A stretch of DNA of 64,000 nucleotides from Rhodospirillales bacterium. GTDB taxonomy: Bacteria; Pseudomonadota; Alphaproteobacteria; JAJFIK01. The stretch lies in contig JAJFIK010000089.1 in the NCBI GenBank assembly GCA_021775005.1, positions 1-64,000 of the forward strand. The letters run 5' to 3'. The position numbers and the translations under genes were made by a program. The notes beneath the pieces are model-generated. The model was not told the origin of the DNA. It worked only from the letters and a program-made list of their open reading frames with translations, and made no database searches. Positions 4,330-58,148 of the stretch are shown here, piece after piece. Every line of letters begins with the position of its first letter. Position 1 is the first letter of the stretch.

Positions 4330-4673
4330 CCTTCCGCGCGTTTGGGATCTTCGTTGCGCAGCTCATCCCAGACATCAAATTCATGGGCAATGCATGCTTC
4401 GATCATTGTGCGCCAAACCGGCTCGGCAATATTGGCCGAAAGGCCCTGGCGTTTGGCCTCTGCCAATACCTTTGTCACCACATCTTCGATGCGCGCCGGG
4501 TCGCGCACCGTATCGCGGTCCCCTTTAATGCGCGCGGCCGCATCCATATAGCTTTGGCGCTCTGCGATCAGCTTCACCAGCGCCCGGTCCAGCCGGTCCA
4601 CTTCAAAGCGAACGTCAGGCATGGTCTGGCATTCGGGGCCGGTCTTGCGGCGCAGGTCGGTTGGATCACTCAT
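4326..4673 (-). CDS. Chorismate mutase, AroQ type
   Basis: A 115-residue all-helical protein of the AroQ class, which rearranges chorismate to prephenate for phenylalanine and tyrosine synthesis. Typical features are VDRLDRALVKLIAERQSYMDAAARIK (helix 1, about residues 25-50, with the Arg and Lys that hold the substrate) and the closing helix around VWRTMIEACIAHE. The length fits a free-standing mutase; the close relative isochorismate-pyruvate lyase (PchB type) is an alternative. The stop overlaps the end of the convergent SET-like gene by 4 bases. ATG start at 4673. Confidence 0.85.
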   Translation of the reverse strand: MSDPTDLRRKTGPECQTMPDVRFEVDRLDRALVKLIAERQSYMDAAARIKGDRDTVRDPARIEDVVTKVLAEAKRQGLSANIAEPVWRTMIEACIAHEFDVWDELRNEDPKRAEG

Positions 4674-4879
4674 ATAAGGGGCTCACTTCAAATCAATTTG
4701 GCTCACCATAGGGAAACTGGCGCAATTTGCCACCTTGGGATGAGAGGCAAAGCGGCGCAGTCTTGCGCCCCGTTCCACAACCTGCCATCAGGCAGGGCGA
4801 ATGCCCCTTGCAGTGGCGGGGGGCTTGATCTACATGCTGTTTCGAGTAAATAAAAAGAATAACATATAAAATACGTTAA

Positions 4880-5944
<1,065 letters not shown>

Positions 5945-5952
5945 GCGTTGTC

Positions 5953-8559: not shown

Positions 8560-9645
8560 ATGATCCGGATTGTAAGCATTGGACTTGGGCTGATTATTGT
8601 TGGTCTTGCCGGGTATCTTTCGTTTTGGCCGGTGCCCATTGACCCGCTGGCGTTTGAAACGCCCAACAACCCCGGTCTGGTGGGCCCCTATGCTGAGAAC
8701 GAACGCCTGACCGAGGCGGAACGCATCGCGGACGGATTGCTCAATGGCCCTGAAGACACAGCAATGGATTCAGATGGCACTATTTTCACAGGGCTTCTTG
8801 ATGGCCGCATTGTCAGCTTTGATCCCGATGATGCCGTCGCGACATTCACCGAAGTTGCTAATACCGGCGGTCGGCCTTTGGGTCTTCAATTTCATCCCGA
8901 CGGTTATCTTGTTATTGCCGATGCGTTCGAAGGCCTGCTGGCGCTAGACACAGACAGCGGCGAGATTCGCGTGCTGGTGGATAGCTATCAAGGCACCAGG
9001 ATGATTTTTGTTGATGACGTGGACATTGGCCAGGATGGCACCATCTGGTTTTCAGATGCCTCGCAACGTTGGGACCTGCACGACAACATTACTGATTTTT
9101 TTGAACGGCGGCCCACAGGGCGGCTGTTTTCGTACCATCCGGGCTTAGATGAGCTGACGCTTCAACTGGACGACCTCTATTTTGCAAACGGTGTCGCCCT
9201 TGGGCCGGGCGGGGCCTATGTGCTTGTGAACGAAACCTTTGCCTATCGCATTTCGCGGCTCTGGCTCACGGGGCCGCGGGCGGGTGAACATGACCTCTTC
9301 GCCGAAGCCTTGCCCGGTGCGCCAGATAACCTCTCCTTCAACGGCTATGACACATTCTGGGTCGCCTTTGCTGTACCGCGCACAGATGCAGCGGACGTCG
9401 CCAATGGCTCGCCCTTTTTTCGGAAGATGTATTTCCGTTTAGCGAATCTACTCAATGCCACACCTGTTGTGGCGCACGGCTTTACTGTGGGGTTTAATCT
9501 CGATGGTGAGGTGACGCACAACTTCCAAAGCGCCAGCGGGGAGGTGTGGATGACCACCTCCATCAATCAGCACAATGACGGGCTCTATGTGGGCAATCTG
9601 CTGAATGATTTCGTTGTGCGCCTGCCGCTGGATGGGGCGGAGTAA
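8560..9645 (+). CDS. Membrane-anchored SMP-30/strictosidine-synthase-like beta-propeller
   Basis: A 361-residue protein with an N-terminal hydrophobic anchor (about residues 4-22) and a six-bladed propeller. GPEDTAMDSDGTIFTGLLDGRI begins the strictosidine-synthase/APMAP-like repeat; GRPLGLQFHPDGYLVIAD and DVDIGQDGTIWFSDAS are the next blades; YFANGVALGPGGAYVLVNET follows. Known relatives are lactonases or arylesterases with a calcium ion in the central channel. It should face the periplasm. GAGGGG lies before ATG 8560. The substrate is unknown. Confidence 0.8.
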   Translation: MIRIVSIGLGLIIVGLAGYLSFWPVPIDPLAFETPNNPGLVGPYAENERLTEAERIADGLLNGPEDTAMDSDGTIFTGLLDGRIVSFDPDDAVATFTEVANTGGRPLGLQFHPDGYLVIADAFEGLLALDTDSGEIRVLVDSYQGTRMIFVDDVDIGQDGTIWFSDASQRWDLHDNITDFFERRPTGRLFSYHPGLDELTLQLDDLYFANGVALGPGGAYVLVNETFAYRISRLWLTGPRAGEHDLFAEALPGAPDNLSFNGYDTFWVAFAVPRTDAADVANGSPFFRKMYFRLANLLNATPVVAHGFTVGFNLDGEVTHNFQSASGEVWMTTSINQHNDGLYVGNLLNDFVVRLPLDGAE

Positions 9646-53478: not shown

Positions 53479-53745
53479 ATGGCGAAAATATTGACCGGTG
53501 TAATGGGGCTGGCGGTCGGCGCTGTCATGATTGCTGCAGGTTCTGCATTTGCACTCGACTCGAGCGTGGAAGCAATGGACATGGGCGGCGATCACCAATT
53601 CTACGTTTGGTGTACAGGTGCTGATGATTTTGAAGACACCGCATCAGGTTCAAACTGGCGCGATGCGCAGACCAATCTTTATAATGCGCTGCAAGGCGAC
53701 GGTCGCAGCACGTGCTGGCCGGTTTGGCAGGGTTTAGTCGACTAA
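53479..53745 (+). CDS. Small secreted protein, unknown
   Basis: An 88-residue protein. A signal peptide (MAKILTGVMGLAVGAVMIAAGSAFA) is followed by about 62 mature residues with two cysteines (VWCTG and TCWPV) and the segment GSNWRDAQTNLYNALQGDG. GGAG lies 8 bases before ATG 53479 and a strong terminator follows, so it is a stand-alone gene. No family recognised. Confidence 0.7.
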   Translation: MAKILTGVMGLAVGAVMIAAGSAFALDSSVEAMDMGGDHQFYVWCTGADDFEDTASGSNWRDAQTNLYNALQGDGRSTCWPVWQGLVD

Positions 53746-53845: not shown

Positions 53846-53933
53846 GGCCGCGTGGTGGAATTGGTAGACACGACAGACTTAAAATCTGTTTCCAGGTTCT
53901 GGAGTGCCGGTTCAAGTCCGGCCGCGGCCACCA
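53846..53933 (+). tRNA. tRNA-Leu (anticodon TAA)
   Basis: Acceptor stem GGCCGCG pairs with CGCGGCC, and the gene carries the 3' CCA. The anticodon stem-loop ACAGA-CTTAAAA-TCTGT gives anticodon TAA, reading UUA leucine codons. A long variable arm (about 53893-53905) and the T arm GCCGG-TTCAAGT-CCGGC complete a class II tRNA of 88 bases. A T-run follows directly. Confidence 0.97.
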
Positions 53934-54056
53934 TTTTTTTTGCGCGATGCCGCCCACCAACCCATCGCGCGGGTTCCGGTTCGAGGTTTAACCTCTCACC
54001 TCCACTAGCAAATAATATCCTCACCCAAATGTGAAGCTCATGCGCCTGAGTCCGCT

Positions 54057-54087
54057 TTGACCTTGTAGTCGCTACAGGGAGCAAAGT
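54057..54087 (+). promoter_or_regulatory. MerR-type operator/promoter of the MerT-like operon
   Basis: TTGACC at 54057-54062 and CAAAGT at 54082-54087 with a 19-base spacer. The spacer holds TTGTAG-TCG-CTACAG, then GGAG. The operator at 57617-57647 has the same TTGACC, TGTAG, CTACA and GG-G elements in the same places, so one regulator likely binds both. Confidence 0.75.
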
Positions 54088-54124
54088 GCCAACTGCCGCA
54101 CCGTTATTTTGAGGAGCACCCCTG

Positions 54125-54532
54125 TTGTCGGATATATCTCCAAATCCCGATGAAGTTGAACCGTCTGACGCCGGAAAAACTGCAGTCTCCACAAGTGGAG
54201 CGGTGGGGCTGAGCGCCATTGCCTCTTTCATTGGGCTTTGCTGTATCGGGCCGTGGTCTGTCGCGCTCTTTGGTGTGCCCGGGGCGGTGGCGTTGGCGCG
54301 GTTTCAGCCGGCGCGGCCTTATCTCCTTGTGGCAGCCGCGCTTCTTCTTGCCTGGTCGTTTTGGACGGTCTACCGCCCACAGCCCCTTACAGGTGAGGCG
54401 TGCGACACCAAGCGTCGGTCGGTCTGGCTGCAGGGGGTCTTGTGGTTGGCGGCGGCATTGCTGCTTGCGGCCATCTTTGCTGAGCAGTTGCAGTGGATAT
54501 TGGTAGACCCCACCCCCAGAGGATTGAGATGA
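54125..54532 (+). CDS. MerT-like membrane transport protein
   Basis: A 135-residue protein resembling mercuric transporter MerT. After an acidic N-terminal tail of about 25 residues, helix 1 carries the paired cysteines C39-C40 in GLCCIGPWSVALFGVPGA, the Hg-binding position in MerT. Helices follow at about 64-82 and 102-125. The loop YRPQPLTGEAC has C93, one of the two loop cysteines usual in MerT. The start is TTG 54125 behind GAGGAG. First gene of the rightward MerR-controlled operon; the stop overlaps the next start. Substrate may be Hg2+ or another thiophilic metal. Confidence 0.75.
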   Translation: MSDISPNPDEVEPSDAGKTAVSTSGAVGLSAIASFIGLCCIGPWSVALFGVPGAVALARFQPARPYLLVAAALLLAWSFWTVYRPQPLTGEACDTKRRSVWLQGVLWLAAALLLAAIFAEQLQWILVDPTPRGLR

Positions 54533-55758
54533 TGGCCCGCGTGAAATTTATTCTTTGCTTGTTGGCCTTGTTCGTACTGCCAGGAAGCGCCATGGCGCAA
54601 ACCGATGCGCCGATTGAAATTATCCCCCTGGGCGAAGACTCGCAGCGGCTCATTGATGACTTCAATGCGCGTGCGGGAACTGTGCGCCAGGTGTTCATTA
54701 TTGGGCCGACCTGCGGTGTCTGCCTGCGCGGCATGGCGGATCTCAACAGCGCGTACATCGCAGAGCGCCAGGGCGATCCGCGCTTGCACACCTTTGTTGT
54801 TTATGTTCCCGCGCTGCAAGCAACGGCTGCGGATGTGCCGCCCGTGGCTGAGCTCATGGCGGGCCCAAGGATCGATCACTATTGGCAAGAGTCCGGCATG
54901 ATCGGCGTGGATTATCAGCCGATCTTTGAAACAGAGATTTACATTTGGGATTTCTGGTTCATTTACGGGCCGGACGCCGTCTGGGAAGGTGATATGCCGC
55001 CGGTTCCAGATTTCTGGCAACACCAGTTGCGTGGCCGCTTTCCCGCTGATCGATATCTGGACAAAGAGGTCTTTACCGCTGAGGTCATCGCCATGATTGA
55101 GGCCTTACCTGAACGCACTGATCAATTGGCGCAATCGTCTGAGACAGCTGGTTCTGCGGGCTCGGTGGTTATCCCCACAGTGGCGCAAGGCTTTGGCGTT
55201 CCCATAAGGCAATATCGGGAGAGCCAAGGGGGGCAGGCGGCGATCGATGCTGTTGCGTCGCGCACCCTGACAGGGCACCTCACCACCGCCGATGCGGTGT
55301 ATGATTTGCGCGTCTCCCATGCGCGCCCCAACATCCTTCAGCGCCAACTGTTTGATGCCGAAGGGCAACCTGCGAGCGCAGAATTGCCTGACGAAGTGGT
55401 GAGTCACCTCAGCGCCAGTTTTGACTTTGATCGGCCGCTCATAAACTGGCAGGCCAAGGGGCACCAATTTACCATGGAGGGAGCGGAGCTGCTGGACGGA
55501 TTGCTCTATTGGAACCTGGTGCAAACCGATCCAGATGGCCGTCGCTGGGCCTATTTGGTTGAAACTCACACCGGCACCATTGCGCGGGAGCAAGCGTTCG
55601 ACATGGACGGTAATTTGACCCTGGTCGTGGTCAATTCTGACTTCAGGGAGGTCGATGGCGCACAGCGGGCTCACCGTGTGGAATACCGGGCTCCCGACGG
55701 TGCGGTTCATTGGGTCGAAGAGTACGACACTATTGCAATCGTTCCGACCGAACAATGA
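54529..55758 (+). CDS. Exported thioredoxin-like (CGVC) protein fused to a LolA/RseB-like domain
   Basis: A 409-residue protein. Residues 1-23 are a signal peptide. The first domain (about 30-195) looks thioredoxin-like, with VFIIGPTCGVC (C62-x2-C65) and a conserved WDFWFIYGPDAVWEGDMPPVPDFWQHQL. The second (about 235-409) is beta-rich, resembling LolA/RseB-type lipoprotein-binding folds (VSHARPNILQRQLFDAEGQ; RWAYLVETHTGTIAREQAFDMDGNLTLVVVNSDFREVDG). It overlaps the MerT-like stop (ATGA). Likely handles metal or thiols in the periplasm; the fusion is unusual and the second-domain call is tentative. Confidence 0.6.
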   Translation: MMARVKFILCLLALFVLPGSAMAQTDAPIEIIPLGEDSQRLIDDFNARAGTVRQVFIIGPTCGVCLRGMADLNSAYIAERQGDPRLHTFVVYVPALQATAADVPPVAELMAGPRIDHYWQESGMIGVDYQPIFETEIYIWDFWFIYGPDAVWEGDMPPVPDFWQHQLRGRFPADRYLDKEVFTAEVIAMIEALPERTDQLAQSSETAGSAGSVVIPTVAQGFGVPIRQYRESQGGQAAIDAVASRTLTGHLTTADAVYDLRVSHARPNILQRQLFDAEGQPASAELPDEVVSHLSASFDFDRPLINWQAKGHQFTMEGAELLDGLLYWNLVQTDPDGRRWAYLVETHTGTIAREQAFDMDGNLTLVVVNSDFREVDGAQRAHRVEYRAPDGAVHWVEEYDTIAIVPTEQ

Positions 55759-55759
55759 G

Positions 55760-56962
55760 ATGAAATCCCTTCCGCGCGCGTTAAATTTCTGGCTGTTTGC
55801 ACTGGTGATCCTTGGGGCCTGGGCCGCAATCGGTTCAGCGGATGCGAGCGAGCCTGCGTTGGAACTTCGCGTGTTTCCTGACGGTCCGATTTACGCCTAC
55901 CAATCAGATCCTGCGCGTCAGAGAAGCAATATTGTTCTGCATAGTTTGGGAGTTACAAATCTCGCGAGCGATGAGATTGAAGTAAGCGGGGTTACTTTCT
56001 CTCTTTTGGAAGAGGGGGTCGTCACGCAAATCACCACAATTGGTGCCGATGAGATCAGCCAACACGCGCCAAGTTATCGAATGGCGCAGCAAATGGGCAC
56101 GTTCCAGCGTTTCGATAGCGTATTTGGGTTTACGCCCTTGTTCGGCGAGGGCGGCCGGCTCTCCAGTGCACGGGTTTTGAGTGAGGGCCGAAGTTTAATC
56201 TTTCTGTCGCAGTATTTTTCGCTCAACGGGAACGTGGATGTGCTGCGCGTTGAGGTGATGGCCATTAGCCAAAACGGTCCCGTGACTACCGCACTCGACA
56301 TTCCTGTGGTGCACTATGATCCAGCGGCGCAATACACCTTTCCACTGAACGGCAGTTGGTTCGTCAACGTAGGACCGAACCATTTCAGCCATCATCGGTG
56401 GTCACAAAACAGCGAATTCGCGATCGACGCCATTCGTGTCGGGCGCAATGGCCGCGCCTTCGCAAGCGATGGCCAGTCGGTTGAGGACTTTTACGCTTTT
56501 GGCGCGCCGGTGTATGCGGCCGCAGAGGGGGTGGTTGTCGCCGCGATGGATGGCATTGGTCCTGCCCCGCTAAAGGGCGTTGATGAATCCTTTGATGACT
56601 TTTTTGCGCGTATGTCGGCGCGTCAGTCTGATCTCTTTGCGGAAGATCCGCTATTGGCTGCGGGTAATTTTGTCATCATTGAGCATGAGGGCGGAGAACA
56701 CTCGGTCTATGGGCATCTGCGGCAAGGGAGTTTGCAAGTGGCGGTCGGAGACAGAGTTTTGCCAGGCATGCAGCTTGGCGAAATTGGAAACTCCGGTAAC
56801 TCGCTTGAGCCACACTTGCACTTTCAGGTGATGTTGGGGGCTGATCGAATGTGGTCGCGCGGGGTGCCAGTTATTTTTCAGGGCCTAGCAGGCCGAGATA
56901 GTGATGTGATTACCCGGCAACTTCGATCTGGAGACTTTGTCTTCAGCAACCACGTTGAATAG
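55760..56962 (+). CDS. Exported M23-type metallopeptidase
   Basis: A 400-residue exported protein, 1 base after the previous stop. A signal peptide covers about residues 1-29. A beta-rich middle (about 35-190) has no known domain. The peptidase domain (about 200-385) has NHFSHHRWSQNSEFAIDA for the first zinc ligands, IEHEGGEHSVYGHLRQGSL, then GNSGNSLEPHLHFQVM with the HxH ligands (about residue 352). The HH...AxD form belongs to a variant M23 branch. Usual M23 enzymes cut peptidoglycan cross-bridges; why one is in a metal operon is unclear. Confidence 0.85.
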   Translation: MKSLPRALNFWLFALVILGAWAAIGSADASEPALELRVFPDGPIYAYQSDPARQRSNIVLHSLGVTNLASDEIEVSGVTFSLLEEGVVTQITTIGADEISQHAPSYRMAQQMGTFQRFDSVFGFTPLFGEGGRLSSARVLSEGRSLIFLSQYFSLNGNVDVLRVEVMAISQNGPVTTALDIPVVHYDPAAQYTFPLNGSWFVNVGPNHFSHHRWSQNSEFAIDAIRVGRNGRAFASDGQSVEDFYAFGAPVYAAAEGVVVAAMDGIGPAPLKGVDESFDDFFARMSARQSDLFAEDPLLAAGNFVIIEHEGGEHSVYGHLRQGSLQVAVGDRVLPGMQLGEIGNSGNSLEPHLHFQVMLGADRMWSRGVPVIFQGLAGRDSDVITRQLRSGDFVFSNHVE

Positions 56963-56964
56963 GT

Positions 56965-57204
56965 CTATTGCGCGCTGGCGCAATTCTGACCTTCTTGGAT
57001 TGGCGGGCAGGGTACATCACCGAATGAGCAGTAAACGCAACAATCACCTGGCAGTGGTTTGAGAACGGTCTTGCAGCCTTTGCAATCATAAAAATACTGG
57101 CAGGCATCGGTGGGCATGGTTTCAGTTTCCCGATGACCACATGCCGGGCAAGTGAGTGTTGACTTCAGACTTACGTCCTGTTGCGGCGCGGCGTTGTCAG
57201 GCAT
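56965..57204 (-). CDS. GDCCVxC-domain protein
   Basis: A 79-residue cysteine-rich protein of the GDCCVxC family, known from metal- and mercury-associated gene neighbourhoods, where some members carry selenocysteine. Motifs are TLTCPACGH, DACQYFYDCKGC and LPGDCCVYCSFGDVPCPPIQ. All three cysteines of GDCCVYC are coded by TGT or TGC, so this is the cysteine form. ATG 57204 overlaps the upstream stop by 8 bases; ATG 57225 is an alternative with a GGGGA site. Last gene of the leftward MerR-controlled unit. Confidence 0.8.
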   Translation of the reverse strand: MPDNAAPQQDVSLKSTLTCPACGHRETETMPTDACQYFYDCKGCKTVLKPLPGDCCVYCSFGDVPCPPIQEGQNCASAQ

Positions 57205-57592
57205 TCGAGTTTCGACCCTTTCCATATGGTCCCCATATCCATTCAAGACCATATGTTGAAATGGCAAGAAGTGCAGTCCCCCAAACAATTTCGTTTAGGA
57301 ATGCCCCCGTCGCTCCAATGATGCCGAAACCGCTAACAAGTACTCCTGCAGACCCCATTAGAAAGATTGGACCTGAGACATAACAATGGAGACGCCCGCA
57401 GCGCCCCGCGTTGATCACGCAAGCCAGCCCCATCCAGACGTAAATCCCGGCCATTATCAAAACGGTGATCTGAAATGGCAGATAGGCTTGCAAAAAATTT
57501 AGCGAAACCAGGATTGCAATCGGCAAGCCCCAGACCAAGATAAATGGCAGCGGCCGGTTGGATAAATCTCGGTTTTCTTGCTCTGCGGTCAT
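57197..57592 (-). CDS. Four-helix membrane protein of a metal-resistance type (MerC-analogue)
   Basis: A 131-residue membrane protein with about four hydrophobic helices. The conserved ACVINAGRCGRLHCYVSGPIFL carries three cysteines (C57, C64, C69 approximately), a pattern I associate with proteins near MerR regulators and GDCCVxC proteins. It is not sequence-like to MerC itself, so transport of metal is inferred from cysteines and context only. Directly downstream of a MerR-type promoter and overlapping the GDCCVxC gene. Confidence 0.65.
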   Translation of the reverse strand: MTAEQENRDLSNRPLPFILVWGLPIAILVSLNFLQAYLPFQITVLIMAGIYVWMGLACVINAGRCGRLHCYVSGPIFLMGSAGVLVSGFGIIGATGAFLNEIVWGTALLAISTYGLEWIWGPYGKGRNSNA

Positions 57593-57616
57593 GACATACC
57601 CTCAAATTGTCGCCAA

Positions 57617-57647
57617 AGACTGCACCTTGTAGTTCCTACATGGTCAA
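57617..57647 (-). promoter_or_regulatory. MerR-type operator/promoter of the leftward metal operon
   Basis: On the leftward strand TTGACC (57647-57642) and CAGTCT (57622-57617) are 19 bases apart. The spacer reads ATGTAG-GAA-CTACAA-GG, matching the dyad at 54057. It lies between the regulator stop and the membrane-protein gene. Confidence 0.75.
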
Positions 57648-57653
57648 GGCAGT

Positions 57654-58085
57654 CTAGACGTACAGGGCGTCGATGATGGGGCAGTTGGGCTTTGCACCGG
57701 TTCCACAAAGCTCCGCGAGATCTTTCAACTTTCGCTGCATTTTTTGGAGTTCGCGAATCTTTTTTTGCACGCCGCCAATGTGTTCAACAGCAATGTCGTG
57801 AATTTCTCCGCAGGAATAATTTTCATTATCCAACAGCGAACACAACCGCCGGGTTTCCTCGATGGTGAAGCCAAGTCCACGCAGCTGTAGGACGAAGCCA
57901 AGCCGTTTGCGGCCCTCGTCGTCATAAATGCGATATCCATTGGCGGCGCGGCGCGGCGGTGGCAGCAAACCATTGCTCTCATAATAGCGAATGGTCTCAG
58001 CCCCACAGCCCGTCGCGCGCGCCAGTTGCCCACGTGTGAATTCGGTATGGTCACTGCTTGCCGCGCCCACTGGAACCTCCCTCAC
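57654..58085 (-). CDS. MerR-family metal-responsive regulator
   Basis: A 143-residue regulator. The winged helix (FTRGQLARATGCGAETIRYYESNGLLPPPRRAANGYRIY, about 15-54) binds the operators described. The long dimer helix and C-terminal metal site follow, with C92 in SCGEI and C127-x7-C135 in CGTGAKPNCPIIDAL. MerR has a similar C-x8-C preceded by one upstream cysteine, so Hg or another soft metal is the probable ligand, not certain. GTG 58085 start; other starts exist a few residues further in. Same direction as the leftward operon it precedes. Confidence 0.8.
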   Translation of the reverse strand: MREVPVGAASSDHTEFTRGQLARATGCGAETIRYYESNGLLPPPRRAANGYRIYDDEGRKRLGFVLQLRGLGFTIEETRRLCSLLDNENYSCGEIHDIAVEHIGGVQKKIRELQKMQRKLKDLAELCGTGAKPNCPIIDALYV

Positions 58086-58148
58086 CTAAATAGTGATCCA
58101 TGCAAGATGGCAGAGATTGTATCCTGTCACTAGTGGAACCGCGATAAC

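Follow-up and report, generated by a model that had tools for sequence, protein, structure and literature searches.

In canonical mer operons, merP sits directly after merT. These operons, represented by Tn501, Tn21 and the alphaproteobacterial merR//merT-merP-merF-merA arrangement, combine a MerR regulator containing three cysteines, a TTGAC promoter with a 19-base spacer and a dyad, and a MerT protein with vicinal cysteines in its first helix. In Roseobacter and in genome G206, a gene for a four-helix protein follows merA as an accessory. According to the account of Tn501 in PMC5027573, MerR binds Hg(II) through Cys82, Cys117 and Cys126, and the 19-base promoter spacing is a requirement (Parkhill and Brown 1990, as cited there). 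Elements that lack merA have also been described. Tn5563 is a published example (merR-merT-merP) that has been termed a defective mer locus; it also carries a GDCCVxC gene (L129), and elements of this type hold all four genes within a Tn3-family transposon. Simpler reductase-free pairs, merR//merT-GDCCVxC and merR//merF-GDCCVxC, are found in Alphaproteobacteria such as Methylobacterium (L126) and Sphingobium (L127).

We analyzed a 64,000-nucleotide stretch of a Rhodospirillales bacterium genome (contig JAJFIK010000089.1; hereafter the window) that contains a mer-type gene cluster. The cluster shares the three-cysteine MerR, the promoter type and the vicinal-cysteine MerT with canonical mer operons, but there is no MerA in the genome and no MerP in the operon, a thioredoxin-LolA-like fusion (Trx-LolA) is present instead, and the units are distributed over at least two promoters. 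With Tn5563-type elements it has the merA-less MerR/MerT/GDCCVxC set in common; in contrast to them, it has no MerP beside MerT, forms two to three separate units, and includes Trx-LolA, a four-helix protein and an M23 peptidase as extra genes. The Methylobacterium and Sphingobium pairs have the same dyad and the same reductase-free core, but unlike the window cluster they are single operons without Trx-LolA.

Gene content and promoters of the cluster

A preliminary description of this DNA had proposed a MerR-controlled metal module of two operons without a reductase. This proposal is supported. The list of open reading frames and HMM scans agree on one merR gene together with a rightward and a leftward operon. 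The rightward operon begins with a merT-like gene (54125-54532, + strand, TTG start), which encodes a 135-residue inner-membrane protein that scores above the curated cut-off of PF02411 (E = 1.1e-9) and below the NCBIfam equivalog cut-off for MerT. This protein carries the vicinal pair of mer-operon MerT in its first helix (GLCCIGP; C39 and C40) and one further cysteine (C93), and thus lacks one of two later cysteines. The next gene, trx-LolA (54532-55758, +), encodes the 408-residue fusion, which is predicted to be secreted and has a CGVC motif in its thioredoxin-like part. It is followed by a gene for a 400-residue M23 metallopeptidase (55760-56962, +; PF01551, E = 1.1e-17) with the M23 H...D...HxH residues. 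By inspection, both of the latter proteins begin with signal-peptide-like stretches. The merT stop and trx-LolA start overlap in TGATG and the M23 gene starts after a one-base gap, and this tight packing makes a single transcript likely.

The leftward operon consists of genes for a 131-residue four-helix membrane protein (57197-57592, −) and a GDCCVxC protein (56965-57204, −; probable ATG at 57204, reading frame open to 57288). The merR gene (57654-58085, −; 143 residues, above the cut-offs of Pfam MerR models) is encoded upstream of this pair in the same direction and is thus not divergent from it. All genes of both operons and merR are intact reading frames. The GDCCVxC protein matches NF041374 with 105 bits against a cut-off of 40, and a literature search for this family found no paper. 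The four-helix protein belongs to a mer accessory family for which there is no model; its conserved motif is NA-x-RCGR-x-HC-x3-GP-x-F, it is 52% identical to the copy in a congener, and it has only three cysteines, so the earlier term "cysteine-rich" does not apply. Relatives of this protein are encoded directly 3' of merA in L065, L066 and L049. The L049 operon, from genome G206, reads merT-merF-merA-four-helix-HMA-OMP behind TTGTACCTGTAGTAACTACAG, and its MerA ends in SCCAV; elsewhere, therefore, the four-helix and HMA/OMP genes belong to a true mer operon as accessories. In the mer transposons of L063 and L064 (Glaciecola and an IncC plasmid; 4531-5947), merA is followed by a second MerR-like gene, a four-helix protein and a 188-residue membrane protein that has an LLCC motif and matches no family model.

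The rightward operator (TTGACCTTGTAGTCGCTACAGGG, 54057-54079, +) and the leftward operator (TTGACCATGTAGGAACTACAAGG, 57647-57625, −) both match TTGACC-N-TGTAG-N3-CTACA-N-GG exactly, with the dyad in a 19-base spacer as in mer promoters. The predicted rightward promoter spans 54057..54087 (+) with a TTGACC −35 element, the 19-base spacer TTGTAGTCGCTACAGGGAG, the dyad TGTAG-N3-CTACA and a −10-like CAAAGT. Its leftward counterpart at 57617..57647 (−), between merR and the four-helix gene, has the same −35 element, the spacer ATGTAGGAACTACAAGGTG and a −10-like CAGTCT. Allowing up to three mismatches, we found four dyad matches, namely the two window sites counted once per strand; the expectation from shuffled sequence was 0.01. 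A whole-genome pattern search (2.85 Mb) found no other exact copy, and the earlier observation of one dyad shared by two promoters is thereby confirmed.

The regulator, its probable effector and a probable third unit

The window MerR contains three Hg-type cysteines (NYSC, then ELC-x7-CPII) that align with those of merA-linked MerR proteins, and it has Cys where CueR has Ser. Its NCBIfam equivalog scores were 113 bits for CueR, 109 for CadR/PbrR and 105 for MerR (TIGR02051, cut-off 150.85, a comparison that lacks scores for alphaproteobacterial merA-linked MerRs). All fall below the respective cut-offs, and therefore family models leave the metal undecided. In a phylogenetic tree, the congener G001, a draft assembly with an estimated 8% contamination, contributed two MerRs that grouped (100/99) with the window MerR. 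One of these controls merT-merP-merA (L195, operator TTGACCCTGTACAAGCTACAGG). Neither the CueR pair nor the PbrR/CadR pair joined the window protein in this tree, and we rejected both identities for the regulator. Its best match in the PDB was Bacillus MerR.

The plasmid relatives of MerR that we examined, from Phaeobacter, Sinorhizobium, Bradyrhizobium, Pseudosulfitobacter, Roseovarius, Bosea and Acidithiobacillus, adjoin merA or merT operons. Dyads of the CTGTAG-N3-CTACAG type stand before many of these operons, including S. meliloti merT-P-merBA, and the window-type dyad also precedes mer operons of Roseobacter and Sphingobium. The kinship with merA-operon regulators and the presence of the same operator before true mer operons make Hg(II) the likeliest effector of the window MerR.

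A third unit of the regulon probably lies on another contig of the same genome. An operator search of the relatives that tolerated one mismatch revealed a site at G000:C84:2612-2633 (TTGTACCTGTAGGGACTACAGG), whose mismatch falls in the −35 element (TTGTAC). The associated unit (G000:C84:969-2633; L198) encodes an outer-membrane-like protein with no Pfam match, a MerP-like HMA protein and a protein weakly related to MerT, and the same trio stands behind the dyad in G384:C507 and G745:C17. A reversed-pattern control gave a few chance matches at one mismatch; despite these, the recurrence of such a rare trio behind the operator in three genomes makes chance unlikely. A Vibrio alginolyticus plasmid carries the dyad TTGAACCTGTAGTAACTATAGGTTCTATACT between merR and GDCCVxC-MerT2-HMA plus a further gene, and this relative of the third unit adjoins copper genes.

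Conservation of the module in relatives

The earlier description would have been refuted had no other genome kept the gene set together. Other genomes do keep it: merR, GDCCVxC, MerT and Trx-LolA co-occur with the window-type operator in L130 and, split over contigs, in G384. L130 (JACZWL010000009) has a single operator followed by GDCCVxC, MerT, Trx-LolA and a 183-residue membrane protein, with merR divergent; it thus differs from the window in being one operon, in lacking the four-helix and M23 genes, and in its extra membrane protein. In G384 (JAJFIN010000049), merR//GDCCVxC and merT-trx are on two contigs, each behind a dyad (CTGTAGTGACTACAG), and the merT-trx contig ends inside trx. The window MerT shares 72% identity with its G384 counterpart over 107 residues and 58% with that of L130.

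The syntenic locus of the congener G001 (map, sfsA, cinA and a gene for an 88-residue protein) retains merR, the four-helix gene and GDCCVxC, and has neither tRNA-Leu nor merT, trx and M23. The window counterpart of the 88-residue protein (53479-53745; LDSSVEAMDMGGDHQFYVWC...) looks secreted and belongs to no family. The stretch missing as one block between the congener's 88-residue gene and GDCCVxC corresponds to window positions 53846-56962, which start with tRNA-Leu (UAA) (53846..53933, +) and run through merT-trx-M23. The difference could reflect either gain in this genome or loss in the congener. The block is possibly an island beside a tRNA gene; a search for flanking direct repeats around it found none that were convincing. 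By inspection, no transposase-like reading frame was recognized at 50-64 kb. At L046 of the congener (about 9240-9265), an extra CTGTAGTCACTACAG dyad lies immediately upstream of merR, which may indicate autoregulation; at the corresponding window position (about 58088-58110) the sequence is degenerate.

The earlier thioredoxin-LolA assignment gained at most moderate support from structure comparison. The fusion had no match in Pfam or NCBIfam, and a profile search of PDB sequences was likewise empty. Foldseek returned LolA-superfamily proteins (E = 5e-5) and thioredoxins (E about 1e-3) as top matches, both from low-confidence AlphaFold models (mean pLDDT 45 for the full fusion and 49 for the thioredoxin part) that give fold hints only. 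Single-sequence searches of genome contigs and plasmids found no relatives of the protein, and the L130 relative emerged only with a two-sequence alignment. When the thioredoxin part was searched against 399 genomes of the phylum, no additional relative appeared, and in all we found Trx-LolA in only three genomes. It adjoins merT in both L130 and L131; the CGVC motif, the W/Y-rich thioredoxin part and the C-terminal half are kept in L130 and partly in L131, whose contig stops at Trx-LolA residue 254. MerT and Trx-LolA occur together, at 36-72% identity, in three lineages that all have the dyad. New here is that in these lineages, behind the shared operator, a gene for a predicted periplasmic CxxC Trx-LolA protein follows merT at the place of merP. 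Because of this position, the secreted CxxC domain and the co-conservation, we hypothesize that Trx-LolA substitutes for MerP.

The M23 peptidase does not share this conservation. It is absent beside the MerT-Trx pair of L130 and from every other readable relative of the module; the M23 relatives of G384 are on other contigs without mer genes, and a paralogue elsewhere in its own genome (29% identity) is unlinked. A class-wide search returned generic M23 matches together with these unlinked copies, and we rejected the peptidase as a conserved partner. Together with the congener locus that lacks merT-trx-M23, these results do not support the earlier suggestion that a cell-wall peptidase is coupled to the system. 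M23 is instead a lineage-specific gene outside the conserved module. One G384 relative (L178 478-1637; G384:C32) has the same N-terminal domain and is split across three reading frames in the assembly.

A probable mercury-type regulon without a reductase

A model search of the whole genome (97.8% complete, 97 contigs) found no MerA. The four best matches resemble lipoamide dehydrogenase or glutathione reductase, score below the cut-off (at best 386 bits against 454) and lack the C-terminal CC, for which reason we rejected a divergent MerA. A domain scan found no MerP or other HMA protein in the window cluster, and the only such protein belongs to the distant third unit. The earlier claim that MerA and MerP are missing nearby thus extends to the whole genome for MerA and holds locally for MerP. 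None of 63 related GDCCVxC loci from the class contained MerA (at least 45% identity over 200 residues) within the fetched stretches, and 22 had MerT, MerF or MerC within 2 kb; these are rough counts, obtained by tblastn with few references, and 36 of the loci have more than 6 kb on both sides. Together with Tn5563, this result makes the absence of a reductase ordinary for such modules, and reductase-less merR/merT(F,P)/GDCCVxC sets are common in the class. The arrangement had been called non-standard for mer, which is only partly right: the missing reductase is already known from other modules, and M23 is not supported as a part of the system. The cluster is a real, conserved mer-type set, and since merA-less modules were known before, it does not constitute a new kind of system.

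MerT import without MerA should raise sensitivity (Nakahara 1979, as cited in PMC4570782). For the module to be of use, a sequestering or thiol-handling partner would then be needed, a role for which GDCCVxC and Trx-LolA are candidates. We consider it probable that the genes form a reductase-free envelope regulon under a mercury-type, Hg(II)-responsive MerR. MerR on the 19-base-spacer promoters would bind Hg(II) through its three cysteines and induce the two local units and the probable third one, a step that follows from the known family. The units would supply the four-helix and GDCCVxC proteins; MerT and Trx-LolA, with M23 as a co-transcribed lineage-specific passenger; and the outer-membrane-like, MerP-like HMA and MerT-like proteins. 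The secreted CxxC protein Trx-LolA may capture Hg(II) or Hg-thiol adducts and hand them to the MerT cysteine pair, or alternatively hold envelope thiols in the reduced state, and GDCCVxC would bind metal in the cytoplasm. Lacking MerA, the cell would sequester the metal or handle it through thiols and would not volatilize it. More speculatively, the outer-membrane protein, the HMA protein, Trx-LolA and two MerT-like proteins could form an envelope-spanning relay to transport Hg(II), possibly outward, or to park it, and GDCCVxC would accept the metal in the cytoplasm; we regard this as conceivable rather than likely.

Several other readings must be weighed against the mercury-type regulon. The cluster could be a degenerate mer locus that has lost merA and merP and consists of fragments with little function, like the "defective" merR-merT-merP set of Tn5563. 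The congener, which possesses a full merRTPA operon and yet keeps merR-four-helix-GDCCVxC alone at the syntenic locus, and the cysteine lost from the window MerT fit such decay, but it appears unlikely given that every reading frame is intact, that the dyad halves are conserved, that the MerT/Trx-LolA/operator combination persists across three lineages, and that many loci of the class have GDCCVxC sets without a reductase. Somewhat less improbable, though still doubtful, is that the regulon senses a different soft metal (Cd, Pb, Zn or Cu/Ag/Au), which the MerT-like proteins would move. The regulator scores slightly higher with the CueR and CadR/PbrR models than with the MerR model, the loop between the cysteines has a CueR-like length, and the Vibrio relative of the third unit neighbors copper genes. 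These features are outweighed in our judgment by the tree, which joins the regulator with a merA-operon MerR, by the cysteine at the CueR serine position and the Bacillus MerR match, and by the same dyad ahead of merA and merBA operons.

The peptidase raises a further possibility, in which mercury damages the wall and M23 and Trx-LolA are induced jointly for envelope repair. Their one-base spacing, common promoter and signal-peptide-like starts would suit this idea; we nevertheless hold it to be very improbable, as the MerT-Trx pair of L130 has no M23 neighbor, the G384 relatives are unlinked to mer genes, and the genome itself contains an unlinked paralogue.

Reductase-less MerR/MerT/GDCCVxC sets are common and tend to be termed defective or to go without annotation. 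As this genome and its two relatives show, these genes can form a conserved regulon of several units with added parts, namely Trx-LolA, the four-helix protein and the outer-membrane-like protein. The question of how a mercury regulon functions without MerA thus becomes testable, and the operator pattern helps to collect missing members. If the relay exists, it would represent a second mercury-handling strategy built from mer parts, without reduction.
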